NCBI GenBank assembly: GCA_021299695.1
Contig: JAJTEK010000074.1
Coordinates: forward strand, 1-33,845
DNA length: 33,845 nt
DNA from: Pirellula sp.
GTDB taxonomy: Bacteria > Planctomycetota > Planctomycetia > Pirellulales > Pirellulaceae
Reading direction: 5' to 3'
Part shown: positions 5,950 to 33,845 of the stretch, piece by piece
Position numbering within the stretch: position 1 is the first letter of the stretch
Layout: each line of letters begins with the position of its first letter
Notes under the pieces: generated by a model
What the model was told of the DNA's origin: nothing
What the model saw: only the letters and a program-made list of their open reading frames with translations
Database searches by the model: none
Program-made: the position numbers and the translations under genes

Positions 5950-6100
5950 GCCGGGTGGGTCGGCATCGCGAAGGAGTTCTTGGGGGTGATCGATTTCATT
6001 TTCGGGCGCACGTTCGGGAAATCCAAGGTAAACCGCTAGGATTTGTGCCAAATTAACCGTAATGATTCTCCCGCGTCGGGAAATCCGCAAGAAATGGTGC

Positions 6101-7405
6101 TTAGGAGGAGCCCTCAGGGGCTGGATCCTGGGTTTTCGGGGTGAGTTCTGGGCTTTTAGGGACCTGGTCGGGGCTCTCGGGTAGCTTTGGTAGGGGCTTT
6201 GCAGGAAGGGTCGAGTCCATATCGATCAGGTCGAATTCGGCTCGGTCGACGTCTTTGCGAAGCACGAGGTAGATCGCCGTCGATGCGGTCCAAAAGAAGC
6301 TGAAACCAAAGGCGGTCGTCAGCAGCGGCACGATAGCTCCAAAGCACCCATCGAGCCACGAATCCATCCCGCCCAGGGTGCCCGTCGAGCCCATCGCGAA
6401 GGCTTGAGCGATGGTGTTGTAGCCGGTGTTCAGAACGATCGAAACGATCGAGCCGCCAAAGTGTCCGATCCACTCGGCGACCAGTACAGCCAGGAACAGC
6501 GTGGCTGGTCGTTGGAACACGTAAGCCGAGGCTCGCGACATTCCGTCAAATGCGTCGGCTTGTTTCTCCGTGACGATTGAAACCGTCGCGAGTGAAAAAC
6601 CGAACAGGGCGATGCCTGCGATCCAGCCGACCCCGAGTGCCATCAGGGATACTGGTAGCATCAGTCCTAGGGCCAGAGGTTGGCCCAGGACCGGAATGTT
6701 CGAGATCCATCCCAAAACGAGAGGTACAAGACAAAACAGCAGGACCAGAGCCAGCGGCATGGCGACCGACCAGACGATCGATTGCCAGCGTGCGGCGACC
6801 CATCGCAGGGTGTTGAACCAAGGCGAGGTGACATGCATACCGAGTTCTTGGACGCTGCGTCGAGCTAGGCACCCGCCGACGAAAGCCCACAGGGCGAGGA
6901 TCCCAAGGGTATTGAGGAGGAAGTAAGCCGACTTGCGGAACGTCGGGGTATCCATGGCATGGAAAGGATACGAGACGTAGCGCCGCCATACATGGATAAA
7001 CGAATCGGGAGCAGGATGAAACCACACGATCGGCTGCCGACTTACCGTGGCGGTTTTCCCGGTGGGATTTAAAGTGGGATCCTCGGGACGGGAACCCTCG
7101 GCACTGAAGGCTTCAAGCCAATGGTTTGGATTAAGGGTCCAGGGCTTCATGGCTTCGGTGCGCGATTCGGGCGTTAACCACCAGGAGGAGGCTTGGTTGG
7201 TTTCGGGTGCAAAGAGCCAACCGGAGAATCCGATCAAGGCCTGGGTGGCCAAAAGCGCCAGGGCGCAGAGTCCCAGGTGCGAGGCGCGCCAGGAGATGGC
7301 CAGCGAGTGGGAGATCAGTCTCCACCAAGGTGTTGAGCGGTACCAATCGATCGATACCTTGGGGACCACAGCGATCTTCGACGATGAATCATTCATGGGA
7401 GTCAA
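6101..7405 (-). CDS. Conserved polytopic membrane protein, function unknown
   Basis: A 434-residue integral membrane protein. Hydrophobic segments appear near residues 42-64, 162-182, 208-235 (two in series with a short loop), 245-275, 300-330 and 365-385, with an extracytoplasmic loop from about 70 to 155 and a Pro-rich cytoplasmic tail (PKLPESPDQVPKSPELTPK). The segment EKQADAFDGMSRASAYVFQRP before a late helix is a pattern I associate with conserved planctomycete membrane proteins of no known function. It starts 24 bp after yacG and is probably in the same transcript. ATG 7396 is an alternative start. It has no ATPase, protease or transporter motif that I can name. Confidence 0.72.
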   Translation of the reverse strand: MTPMNDSSSKIAVVPKVSIDWYRSTPWWRLISHSLAISWRASHLGLCALALLATQALIGFSGWLFAPETNQASSWWLTPESRTEAMKPWTLNPNHWLEAFSAEGSRPEDPTLNPTGKTATVSRQPIVWFHPAPDSFIHVWRRYVSYPFHAMDTPTFRKSAYFLLNTLGILALWAFVGGCLARRSVQELGMHVTSPWFNTLRWVAARWQSIVWSVAMPLALVLLFCLVPLVLGWISNIPVLGQPLALGLMLPVSLMALGVGWIAGIALFGFSLATVSIVTEKQADAFDGMSRASAYVFQRPATLFLAVLVAEWIGHFGGSIVSIVLNTGYNTIAQAFAMGSTGTLGGMDSWLDGCFGAIVPLLTTAFGFSFFWTASTAIYLVLRKDVDRAEFDLIDMDSTLPAKPLPKLPESPDQVPKSPELTPKTQDPAPEGSS

Positions 7406-31498: not shown

Positions 31499-32046
31499 GT
31501 TTTGCACTCCTTGCGTTCGATGGTTGTCGCTGCTTGGTGGATTTGCAAAATCCGATGGCAAAGCAGCGCGTTTCGCTGGTTCCTTCCAGAGCGAATCGGG
31601 GGCATTCTGCCCGAAACGATTCCCCCGCGTAAATACCGATCCGAGGAAACTCCGATTTTTTGTCGTCGGCAAAATGCAAGGATCGAGCATAACGAAGGCA
31701 CTCGGGATAGGCTTCCAGCCATTTTATACCCCACAGGCCATTTGATGAAAGGCAGCGTACGCTTCGACGATCGCGTCGAAACGGCTCATCCCTCGCCCCT
31801 AGGGCTTTGACTCGCGGGAGAGCGTATGGGGACGGGGGGTGAGTCTCACCGCAAAGGCACAAAGGTCGCAAAGGAAACAGCCAAGGGAGAAAATCGCTGC
31901 CAGTGATCGATAGGCTCTGGTTCCGATCCTTCGGCGAACTCAAGGCGCACTAGCCACCTGTCGCCAGACGGTGGAAGCGTTACTCACGCCGCTTGGCCAC
32001 CGCTTGGCAGCGGATGGCTACGGGAAAAGAGCCAAAGGAAAAAGTG
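31499..32046. other. Intergenic region with short hairpins and a CAAAGG cluster
   Basis: About 550 bp upstream of the ompH-like gene and downstream of the second PEP-CTERM gene, both on the minus strand. No family-supported gene is visible. It holds three CAAAGG boxes at 31852, 31860 and 31869, a bulged hairpin CCACC...GGTGG (31954-31974) and a small hairpin CCGCT/AGCGG (32000-32013), the last close behind the PEP-CTERM stop codon and perhaps part of its transcript end. The ompH promoter must lie in the left part but was not identified with confidence. Confidence 0.55.
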
Positions 32047-32970
32047 CTACTTCTTCCGACGCCTCTTAGCCACAAGCCCACCTATACCAAACAATGTCCC
32101 TATCACCATCATGCTCGGCTCAGGCACTGCAGGTGTACCTTCAGTACCTTCAATCAGGAACGGGAAGTCCTGAGGCGTAGATCCGTCCAGAGCGTTGGCG
32201 AAAGTGCCTGCGGCACCCACGCGTTGCTGTCCATTACCAGTGGTCAACCCAGTTGCTCCCAGCGGAGTGAGTCCAGGGACAAATGGTCCACTAGACAACG
32301 AGCCAGTAAAGCCCCAATCGAGCGAATATGATCCCGGACCAATGTTCCAGTTGAGACCGGCAACGTCCACAAACTGAATCCGCCGAGTCGTTCCGGAGGT
32401 ATCGGTATTAAGGGTGCGGTAGATGTTGGAGAGCGATGTCGACGTCATCACATTGGTTGTCTCGTCGCCGAAAAGCAGGGTACCGGTACCGGCAGCACCC
32501 GACCACAACCGAAGAGTGACACCCGTGATGGTGCTTGCAGTTGCGTTAGTCTGGTAGGTGTAGAGCCGAATGCTGTTGATGGTCCACGAGTTGCCTGCAT
32601 TGAAATCATCGGCAAGCCGTTTTGAAGAACCGTTTTCCGCAGTGTAGCCAAAGGTGGAACCGCCAACGCCAATCGCACTTCGGTCGGCTCCGGCGACAGC
32701 GCCAGTCATACCGCCGGGATGGGTGACGAGTACGCCACCGAGGCCATTGTTGACCTCATTGTTCCAAAGAACGGCAGCCTGAGCAGATCCGCCGATTAGG
32801 GCGATCGCGACGCCCAGAACTTTTACAAGTGTATGCTTCAAATGCCCAGTGCCAAAGCTCACGACTGCGGTTTGCACAGCGGAAACCATACTGGCAGCGA
32901 ACATCGAAACCGCTGCGACAAAATGAAATAATGTTCGTCTCACGATACTGTTCTCCAAATAAGCGATCAA
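32047..32970 (-). CDS. PEP-CTERM sorting-domain protein
   Basis: A protein of up to 307 residues. The C-terminus has the full PEP-CTERM signal: VPEPSM, hydrophobic MVIGTLFGIGGLVA and KRRRKK. The body is rich in Gly, Ser, Thr and Asn with a beta-type pattern (WTINSIRLYTYQTN, VTLRLWSG) and is probably an extracellular jelly-roll-like domain; no enzyme motif is seen. The start is uncertain. TTG 32970 has AAGGAG 9 bp before it, GTG 32943 has GGAG 9 bp before it and would begin with an RR-type signal peptide, and a later TTG would begin MKHTLVKVLG and end in AQA. Two signal-like hydrophobic stretches are therefore present in tandem. Exosortase is not in the window. Confidence 0.8.
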   Translation of the reverse strand: MIAYLENSIVRRTLFHFVAAVSMFAASMVSAVQTAVVSFGTGHLKHTLVKVLGVAIALIGGSAQAAVLWNNEVNNGLGGVLVTHPGGMTGAVAGADRSAIGVGGSTFGYTAENGSSKRLADDFNAGNSWTINSIRLYTYQTNATASTITGVTLRLWSGAAGTGTLLFGDETTNVMTSTSLSNIYRTLNTDTSGTTRRIQFVDVAGLNWNIGPGSYSLDWGFTGSLSSGPFVPGLTPLGATGLTTGNGQQRVGAAGTFANALDGSTPQDFPFLIEGTEGTPAVPEPSMMVIGTLFGIGGLVAKRRRKK

Positions 32971-33153
32971 GAACTCATACTCCTTGGCAAATAGCCAAAA
33001 GAGAACAAATCATCGGTTCGCATCATGCAAGAGAAAAACCGAGCAACCTTGCTCAGTGTACAAGTCGGCTCGGTGCTCCTCGAAGCCTGGGAAGTCCGAG
33101 AAGTACCTTACCGAGTCGCCATTAAAACGATCGTTGCATGCATTGCAAGAAAA
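32971..33153. other. Left part of the divergent intergenic region before the response regulator
   Basis: Non-coding leader and promoter region of the minus-strand PEP-CTERM gene. It contains AAGGAG just outside the gene and an interrupted dyad TTGCA-5 bp-TGCAA (33134-33148). The open frames on the plus strand here are compositionally unlike genes and lack homology signs. Confidence 0.5.
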
Positions 33154-33179
33154 CAATTGTCACAAGTTTGTGACAATTG
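33154..33179. promoter_or_regulatory. Perfect 12+2+12 bp palindrome of the AATTGTCAC box
   Basis: CAATTGTCACAA (33154-33165), GT, then the exact inverse TTGTGACAATTG (33168-33179). It contains two inverted copies of the nonamer AATTGTCAC that recurs as direct repeats 70-160 bp to the right. A binding site for a dimeric regulator is the simplest reading; a transcribed hairpin is the alternative. Confidence 0.8.
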
Positions 33180-33244
33180 CATCCTGGCGAGCAGGAATCG
33201 GGAGCTTGCAGCATAAGCAACCGCCTCTGGTGCATAAGTCAATG

Positions 33245-33265
33245 CAATTGTCACTGAATTGTCAC
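33245..33265. promoter_or_regulatory. Pho-box-like tandem repeat 1 (11-bp period)
   Basis: CAATTGTCACTGAATTGTCAC: two AATTGTCAC nonamers starting 11 bp apart, so both face the same side of the helix. The core, two TTGTCAC heptamers with a 4-bp spacer, has the geometry of sites for OmpR/PhoB-family regulators. Confidence 0.7.
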
Positions 33266-33318
33266 AAGCCTGAATGGTCGAAACCCATGGTTTTTCCCTG
33301 TTTATCTATTAGCTAAAG

Positions 33319-33354
33319 CAATTGTCACTGAATTGTCACTAAAAATCTTATATA
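33319..33354 (+). promoter_or_regulatory. Pho-box-like tandem repeat 2 with adjoining -10 element
   Basis: The same 21-bp sequence as repeat 1 (33319-33339), followed after 9 bp by TATATA (33349-33354). In promoters activated by PhoB-type regulators the box replaces the -35 element and ends about 10 bp before the -10, as it does here. The predicted transcript would start near 33361, about 165 nt upstream of the response regulator. A link to that regulator is inference. Confidence 0.6.
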
Positions 33355-33446
33355 GCTAATTATGTAGTTTAGCGAATACAGGAATTTTCAAAAGATTTTT
33401 CCATCGAAGGCAAACCCGAGGCACCCGTGCGGCGGTTGCCACCTGT

Positions 33447-33475
33447 TTGTTCGGTAACGAGTTTCGTTGTATCAT
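33447..33475 (+). promoter_or_regulatory. Second possible sigma70 promoter of the response regulator
   Basis: TTGTTC (33447-33452), a 17-bp spacer and TATCAT (33470-33475), about 50 bp upstream of the start codon. Both hexamers are imperfect, but the spacing is ideal. It could give basal expression beside the box-dependent promoter upstream. Confidence 0.4.
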
Positions 33476-33524
33476 TGGAGCTCGTCCCTCCAGTTCACAG
33501 GCCTCCGACACGCAACCTATCGAA

Positions 33525-33845
33525 ATGCAGACCGTACTATTGGTCGAAGATGATTTGAAGCTTGCCAAGATCATGCGCGCGTTTCTGCAGGAGAACGACT
33601 TCCGCGTGGAAATCGAAGGGCATGGCGATCGAGCTGTCGATCGAATCCTTGGTTTCCAACCCGATGCGGTGGTGCTTGATATCAATTTGCCAGGCTCGAA
33701 CGGTTTTACTATCTGTCGACAAGTACGGCCCTATTATCAGGGTGCGATCCTCATCTTGACCGCCCGCAATGAAGAACTCGACGAAGTGCTCGGTTTGGAG
33801 GTTGGGGCCGACGATTTTTTATCCAAGCCTGTGCGGCCGATGGCG
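33525..33845 (+). CDS. Response regulator receiver domain, RstA/OmpR-like, N-terminal part
   Basis: The first 107 codons of a gene that continues beyond the window. The receiver fold is complete up to its fifth strand: acidic pair in VLLVEDD (D9, D10), phospho-acceptor D52 in VVLDINLPG, T79 in LILTAR and K101 in FLSKP. The wording ICRQVRPYYQGAILILTAR and LGLEVGADDFL resembles RstA and other OmpR-type regulators, which predicts a winged-helix DNA-binding domain beyond the edge, but this cannot be seen. A sensor kinase gene would be expected downstream. The upstream region has six AATTGTCAC boxes, suggesting autoregulation. ATG 33525 has no clear Shine-Dalgarno. Confidence 0.88.
   Translation, partial: MQTVLLVEDDLKLAKIMRAFLQENDFRVEIEGHGDRAVDRILGFQPDAVVLDINLPGSNGFTICRQVRPYYQGAILILTARNEELDEVLGLEVGADDFLSKPVRPMA

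Follow-up and report, generated by a model that had tools for sequence, protein, structure and literature searches.

OmpR-class response regulators frequently recognise direct repeats of 6–7 bp with a 4-bp spacer (PMC10609481, excerpt), and several described systems of this kind invite comparison with the locus studied here. RstA, of the RstA/RstB systems of E. coli and Klebsiella, binds tandem operators head to tail, at a box given as TACATNTNGTTACA, and Val203, Arg207 and Arg199 in a helix of the Klebsiella protein contact bases (PMC4117788, excerpt). The E. coli Pho box, bound by PhoB, is a 7+4+7 direct repeat with a TGTCA core and the consensus CTGTCAT-A(AT)A(TA)-CTGT(CA)A(CT), and the phoA site, CTGTCATAAAGTTGTCAC, has TTGTCAC as its second half (PMC3465305, excerpt); two PhoB sites have been reported upstream of phoB itself (PMC10294691, excerpt). 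For MtrA of Mycobacterium, the motif GTCACAgcg has been reported (PMC2945938, excerpt). For response regulators of planctomycetes, our literature search turned up no operator that has been mapped, a statement that, given the limited extent of the search, stands on a thin basis.

How does the present locus compare with these systems? The window, by which we mean the whole stretch of DNA analysed, comprises 33,845 nucleotides and is the entire contig C9 of an assembly of 5.49 Mb in 229 contigs. Towards its end, repeats of TTGTCAC precede the genes of a response regulator and a histidine kinase, and RstA/RstB is the best NCBIfam match of both products: RstA ranks first of 86 families for the regulator (181 bits, below the NF007977 cut-off of 330) and RstB first for the kinase (183 bits, far under the cut-off of 478), with MtrB much lower. 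MtrA is the second match of the regulator (178 bits, below the cut-off of 300), PhoB (TIGR02154) reaches 149 bits (below the cut-off of 296), and the family models place the protein nearer RstA than PhoB. Among PDB entries, the whole regulator is best matched by MtrA (2gwr) and its DNA-binding domain alone by an RstA (2naz); for that domain, Klebsiella RstA with DNA (4nhj) ranks below RegX3, VicR and MtrA. The likeness to RstA is limited by scores far below the cut-offs, by the word—TTGTCAC at an 11-bp period, not the RstA box—and by the helix, which reads DMHVLRLR here and DVAISRLR in the Klebsiella protein. MtrA also carries a His in its helix (VNVHVQRLR), but the partner kinase is closest to RstB and much less close to MtrB. 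The arrangement is most likely ordinary in kind, that of an autoregulated OmpR-class pair with tandem operators, and unusual in its binding word, which appears to be private to the locus. We regard the locus as a solid comparative case; of most interest in it are the putatively private operator word and the connection that this may have with an altered helix.

The gene pair and the sites upstream of it

33154–33179 (no strand): site P, a perfect 12+2+12 palindrome, CAATTGTCACAA-GT-TTGTGACAATTG
33180–33243 (no strand): block between P and T1
33244–33265 (+): site T1, GCAATTGTCACTGAATTGTCAC, TTGTCAC-N4-TTGTCAC with an 11-bp period
33318–33339 (+): site T2, the 22 bp of T1 again, 74 bp downstream of T1
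33525–33845 (+): the first 107 codons of the response regulator gene, coding for the receiver domain and truncated by the contig end at 33845
C56:2141–3760 (−): histidine kinase gene, 540 aa, directly after the regulator gene and overlapping its stop

Although the regulator gene is truncated in the window, a point absent from the first reading, another contig of the same genome, C56, has the last 103 bp in common exactly and continues the regulator frame. The join between C9 and C56 is supported by relatives in which the order of regulator and kinase is uninterrupted (G010, G014, G013 and G011). Completed in this way, the regulator is 229 aa long and consists of a receiver (PF00072) and a winged-helix Trans_reg_C domain (PF00486), both above cut-off; the latter domain, whose lack had been named in the first-pass annotation as a result that would refute its reading, puts the protein in the OmpR/PhoB class. 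The kinase contains HAMP, HisKA and HATPase_c domains according to profile search, and its gene overlaps the regulator stop in four relatives as well as here (538 aa in G011). Upstream of the ATG at 33525, the regulator frame stays open as far as a TTG at 33447 (33447–33524), both in the window and in relatives; we prefer the ATG as start because the receiver domain begins there.

About 185–370 bp upstream of this ATG lie P, T1 and T2, which together hold six copies of AATTGTCAC, at 33155–33163 (+), 33170–33178 (−), 33246–33254, 33257–33265, 33320–33328 and 33331–33339 (the last four all on the plus strand). All six had been listed at these places in the first reading of the sequence, as had the perfect palindrome at P; the two tandems, described there as identical over 21 bp, are indeed identical, but over 22 bp. 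Site P can also be read as TTGTCAC-N4-TTGTGAC on either strand, at the same 11-bp period and one mismatch away from the tandem. P, T1 and T2 can therefore be taken for sites of a single type, of which P may be read in either direction. Such a density is not due to chance: TTGTCAC occurs 11 times in the window compared with 3.6 expected, a count of at least 11 being reached in 0 of 100 shuffles, and 6 of the 21 genomic copies of AATTGTCAC are found here, where the other 15 predict 0.0005 per 201 bp.

Conservation and confinement of the sites

Full-length kinase orthologs, taken at a minimum of 70% identity, are present in 6 of the 27 genomes of our genus set (G000, G010, G014, G013, G011 and G001). 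In G001, whose kinase is 70% identical, the contig begins inside the regulator gene, and in G018 just the last 113 kinase residues (72% identical) are left at a contig end. The upstream region is readable in five genomes, that of the window included, and P, T1 and T2 are present in every one of them; conservation in relatives had been named beforehand as a test of the sites. T1 is identical throughout, T2 is kept with a single change (one TTGTCAT in G013), and P is kept except for its inner base 33169, again in G013, where the minus-strand reading is still intact. In the alignment of all five, invariant columns number 53 of 54 in the half-sites as compared to 203 of 309 elsewhere in the intergenic region (33180–33524), with a Fisher p of 6e-8 that should be read as indicative because neither columns nor genomes are independent. 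The P–T1 and T1–T2 spacers are free of gaps in 5/5 genomes, small gaps occurring only farther downstream, and the spacing between the sites, 74 bp in the latter case, is thus fixed. The three sites are not the sole constrained part of the region, since 56 of 66 columns are likewise invariant over 33180–33245; further proteins may bind this block between P and T1. The block also contains a direct repeat of GCATAAG (33211–33217 and 33232–33238, 21 bp apart), the second copy of which is kept in all five genomes and the first altered in G014 and G013.

Where else does the word occur? A genome search for TTGTCAC-N4-TTGTCAC, proposed along with the first-pass annotation, locates the exact form at the focal locus only, and this holds genus-wide: among the 27 genomes there are 9 matches, all 9 at the focal locus, and none in the reversed control. 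The assembled parts of G001 and G018, where contigs end inside the gene pair, lack the exact tandem. Across the family (241 genomes), 20 exact matches were obtained in 15 genomes; 9 of them are the focal loci, and the remaining 11, spread across 10 genomes, are near chance given 7 matches in the control. With up to two mismatches allowed, the genome of the window yields 17 matches, of which 4 belong to the locus and 13 lie in other places. As the reversed control yields 12, no second home of the tandem word is visible in this genome and no regulon can be claimed. Two candidates for further sites were discarded: a pair of AATTGTCAC copies 18 bp apart on C138, by eye a coding repeat, and a stretch of G011 (C828, L097, about 6090–6285, minus strand), which is a rearranged copy of the leader and looks decayed: it retains a single tandem whose half-sites carry two changes, and no regulator gene is seen behind it.

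Careful retention of a word at a single locus suggests the regulator encoded at that locus as its reader. We therefore consider it probable that P, T1 and T2 are operators of the response regulator encoded just downstream, that is, that the pair is autoregulated. This reading, already put forward tentatively in the first-pass annotation for the regulator at 33525, is the best one on account of the OmpR-type domain, the retention of the boxes in 5/5 genomes and the absence of the exact form elsewhere in the genus. The regulator, once phosphorylated by its partner kinase, would dock as head-to-tail dimers on the TTGTCAC repeats with their 11-bp period, T1 and T2 facing the regulator's own operon and P being able to face the divergent secreted-protein gene. 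Given the invariant spacing of the sites, the bound dimers could form one regulatory block, which would set the expression of the regulator–kinase operon and probably that of the divergent gene, too. What the data show directly is the repeats, how well they are kept, their restriction to one locus, the regulator's OmpR-type domain and its operon with the kinase; that this regulator is the binder, which promoters serve the two genes and whether the divergent one is controlled are inferred, and autoregulation may be positive, as proposed in the first-pass annotation, or negative.

The main rival of autoregulation is the organism's PhoB, because the Pho box, too, is built as 7+4+7 and TTGTCAC forms part of the phoA site. 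Relative to the consensus in PMC3465305 (excerpt), the focal tandem differs at 1/7 positions in its second half, 2/7 in its first half and 2/4 in the spacer, and the geometry fits. The genome does encode a PhoB-like regulator, with PhoB as its top NCBIfam family (238 bits, under the cut-off of 296); its gene stands behind one that is PhoU-like by eye, and its helix, DVHIRALR, is similar to the focal one and shares the His, so that such sites could suit this protein. If they were Pho boxes that place the pair under phosphate control, one would expect the word elsewhere, since a global regulator's word should not be limited to a single locus. However, at 13 PstS-type loci from five genomes (13 of 17 matches, one over and three under the cut-off having been left out), there is no TTGTCAC or CTGTCAT tandem with up to two mismatches, the best having 3 to 6, nor is there one at the PhoU–PhoB locus of the same genome (best 3). 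We judge control by PhoB to be quite improbable.

Could the sites instead belong to a non-cognate, locus-specific transcription factor, such as a dedicated repressor for which P would be the symmetric operator? The perfect palindrome would be accounted for, as OmpR-class regulators do not require such symmetry, and so would the conservation of the P–T1 block. On the other hand, head-to-tail pairs of half-sites with an 11-bp period are the OmpR-class form, which P holds on both strands, and visual inspection of the listed flanks brings out no other regulator gene. We regard this explanation as unlikely. It is highly improbable that the palindrome acts as RNA, be it as the terminator of a minus-strand transcript or as a leader hairpin. 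P does score as terminator-like on the minus strand, with a 12-bp stem followed by TTTTCTT, and folds with z-scores of −6.0 (minus strand) and −3.3 (plus strand); yet any perfect DNA palindrome folds well by itself, the stem has only 4 G-C pairs, the half-site recurs in T1 and T2, which fold no better than chance (33235–33345, z 0.6), and no Rfam match was obtained within 32000–33845 at E up to 1.

Promoter candidates and the divergent gene

33445–33490 (+): candidate operon promoter stretch in the leader, 41/46 columns invariant, about 90 bp beyond TATATA
33142–33153 (−): conserved flank of P, 12/12 columns invariant in the four genomes showing it
32047–32970 (−): divergent gene of uncertain start, whose product looks secreted and PEP-CTERM-like (C-terminus PAVPEPSMMVIGTLFGIGGLVAKRRRKK)

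In a Pho-type promoter, the −10 element stands about 10 bp after the box. A TATATA 9 bp past the second tandem had accordingly been taken for a −10 of this type in the first reading; its position is correct (33349–33354, 9 bp after T2), but the assignment is not supported, as 0/6 columns are invariant among the five genomes and the hexamer is altered in all four relatives (TATATG in G014, CGTATA in G010, CATAAC in G013 and CAACAC in G011). G010 has a TATAGC 2 bp beyond its CGTATA. A likelier promoter of the regulator–kinase operon, judging from conservation, is the stretch at 33445–33490, which ends about 50 bp before the ATG and contains, at 33447–33475, a TTGTTC-17-TATCAT arrangement with both hexamers identical in 5/5 genomes. 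A promoter consensus scan did not report this arrangement; planctomycete promoters may differ from the consensus. With 105 bp between the end of T2 and the promoter-like stretch, and sites that lie about 185–370 bp from the ATG, the layout does not readily suggest that the operon is activated in a simple Pho-type manner.

On the other side of P, a minus-strand TGCAAT (33147–33142) follows at 11 bp, a Pho-like spacing toward the divergent gene. We note it as a lead, a candidate −10 of that gene that the consensus scan did not report. The adjoining 33078–33130 is invariant at just 18 of 53 columns, mainly since G013 departs there. Control of the divergent gene by the sites is plausible because the P flank is invariant at 12/12 columns and because, in the same four genomes, a secreted-looking protein starts there (as judged by eye). 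The protein itself differs. In G014, it is a different one with an FGE-sulfatase domain and a tail nearly the same as that encoded in the window; in G010, it corresponds to the N-terminal part of a relative of the G014 protein; and G013 has yet another start, with a signal-like stretch, truncated by the contig end. In G011, the contig begins at P and shows no divergent side. Hence, the neighbour gene beside the sites changes among genomes and the sites stay.

The divergent-gene product of the window has no match in Pfam or NCBIfam and no profile called it PEP-CTERM, so this label refers to a motif recognised by eye. Also by eye, two signal-peptide-like stretches follow one another in 32047–32970 (minus strand), as though an earlier secreted-protein gene had been exchanged for a newer one, with the old leader left in place. 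The presumed leader of the gene includes a terminator-like hairpin followed by a T run (33038–33057, minus strand), which is identical in G010, changed in its loop in G014 and absent in G013, and which could be an attenuator. Further copies of the 3′ portion of the gene and of the DNA that follows it (31951–32136) occur in the same genome at C209 and C60, with 92% identity, and in relatives at about 79–93%.

RstA-like relatives and a possible change of helix and word

Is the word shared by regulators of the same kind? We assembled 24 RstA-like rows from genus and family (below 80% identity, at least 100 nt of upstream DNA), found beside similar kinases or by similarity of the regulator, with identical proteins counted once and two rows without upstream DNA left out. 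A TTGTCAC tandem with up to three mismatches was found upstream of 0/24 (0.25 expected). Like the focal regulator, however, many of these relatives have tandem hexamers upstream of their own gene: TGTATC-N4-TGTATC, with up to two mismatches and within 400 nt, precedes 12 of the 24, compared with 0.4 expected from shuffles that preserve base composition only, not dinucleotides. This is as expected if self-control is common in the group. The tandem was detected in 10/13 rows from the genus, which do not form a held-out set because the word was first spotted there by eye, and in 2/11 rows from outside it, which do; TGTATC as the word of these regulators thus has good support in the genus and weak support beyond it. 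The RstA box, when read on the opposite strand, resembles this TGTATC tandem, which comes nearer to it than the focal word does (PMC4117788, excerpt).

The relatives differ from the focal clade in the 10-bp period of their tandem and in their recognition helix. In the tree, the focal clade forms one group with full support and has the helix DMHVLRLR in 6/6 members, as opposed to DLR(I/V)(S/C)RLR in 22/22 readable rows outside it (two rows in which the helix is truncated went into the class 'other'). Aligned to Klebsiella RstA, the focal regulator has Met at 203, His at 204 and Leu at 206, a numbering obtained by fitting the residues named in PMC4117788 (excerpt) to the DNA-binding-domain alignment. 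The His recurs in MtrA and in the PhoB-like protein of this genome, and words with GTCAC or TGTCA have been reported for MtrA and E. coli PhoB. By itself, the His does not determine the word, since another regulator of the same genome, outside the group, has it in the helix EVHINRLR and is preceded by no tandem of this kind. That helix and word switched jointly is a reasonable interpretation, based on a correlation in one clade.

Extending this reading, we tentatively suggest, as a scenario that we consider rather less likely than not, that one clade of autoregulators acting on TGTATC tandems (10 bp) switched to TTGTCAC (11 bp) together with a change of helix from DLR-I/V-S to DMHVL, arriving at a PhoB/MtrA-like word that, in its exact form, the rest of the genome lacks. 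A duplicated pair would thereby have become insulated at the DNA level, with its own locus and an exchangeable surface-protein gene as its private target. At the level of signalling, reconstruction has been used to study how duplicated pairs become insulated (PMC9208753, excerpt). If the assignment is right, a regulator has been paired with its operator word without any experiment, and the contrast with the TGTATC-type relatives would provide a small natural data set on how helix and word change together in the OmpR class after duplication. TGTATC/TGTAAC-N4-TGTATC-like tandems are seen upstream of the regulator at L082–L085, L089, L091–L093, L096, L142 and others, and in a few RstA-like relatives such a tandem stands, by eye, directly at the start codon.
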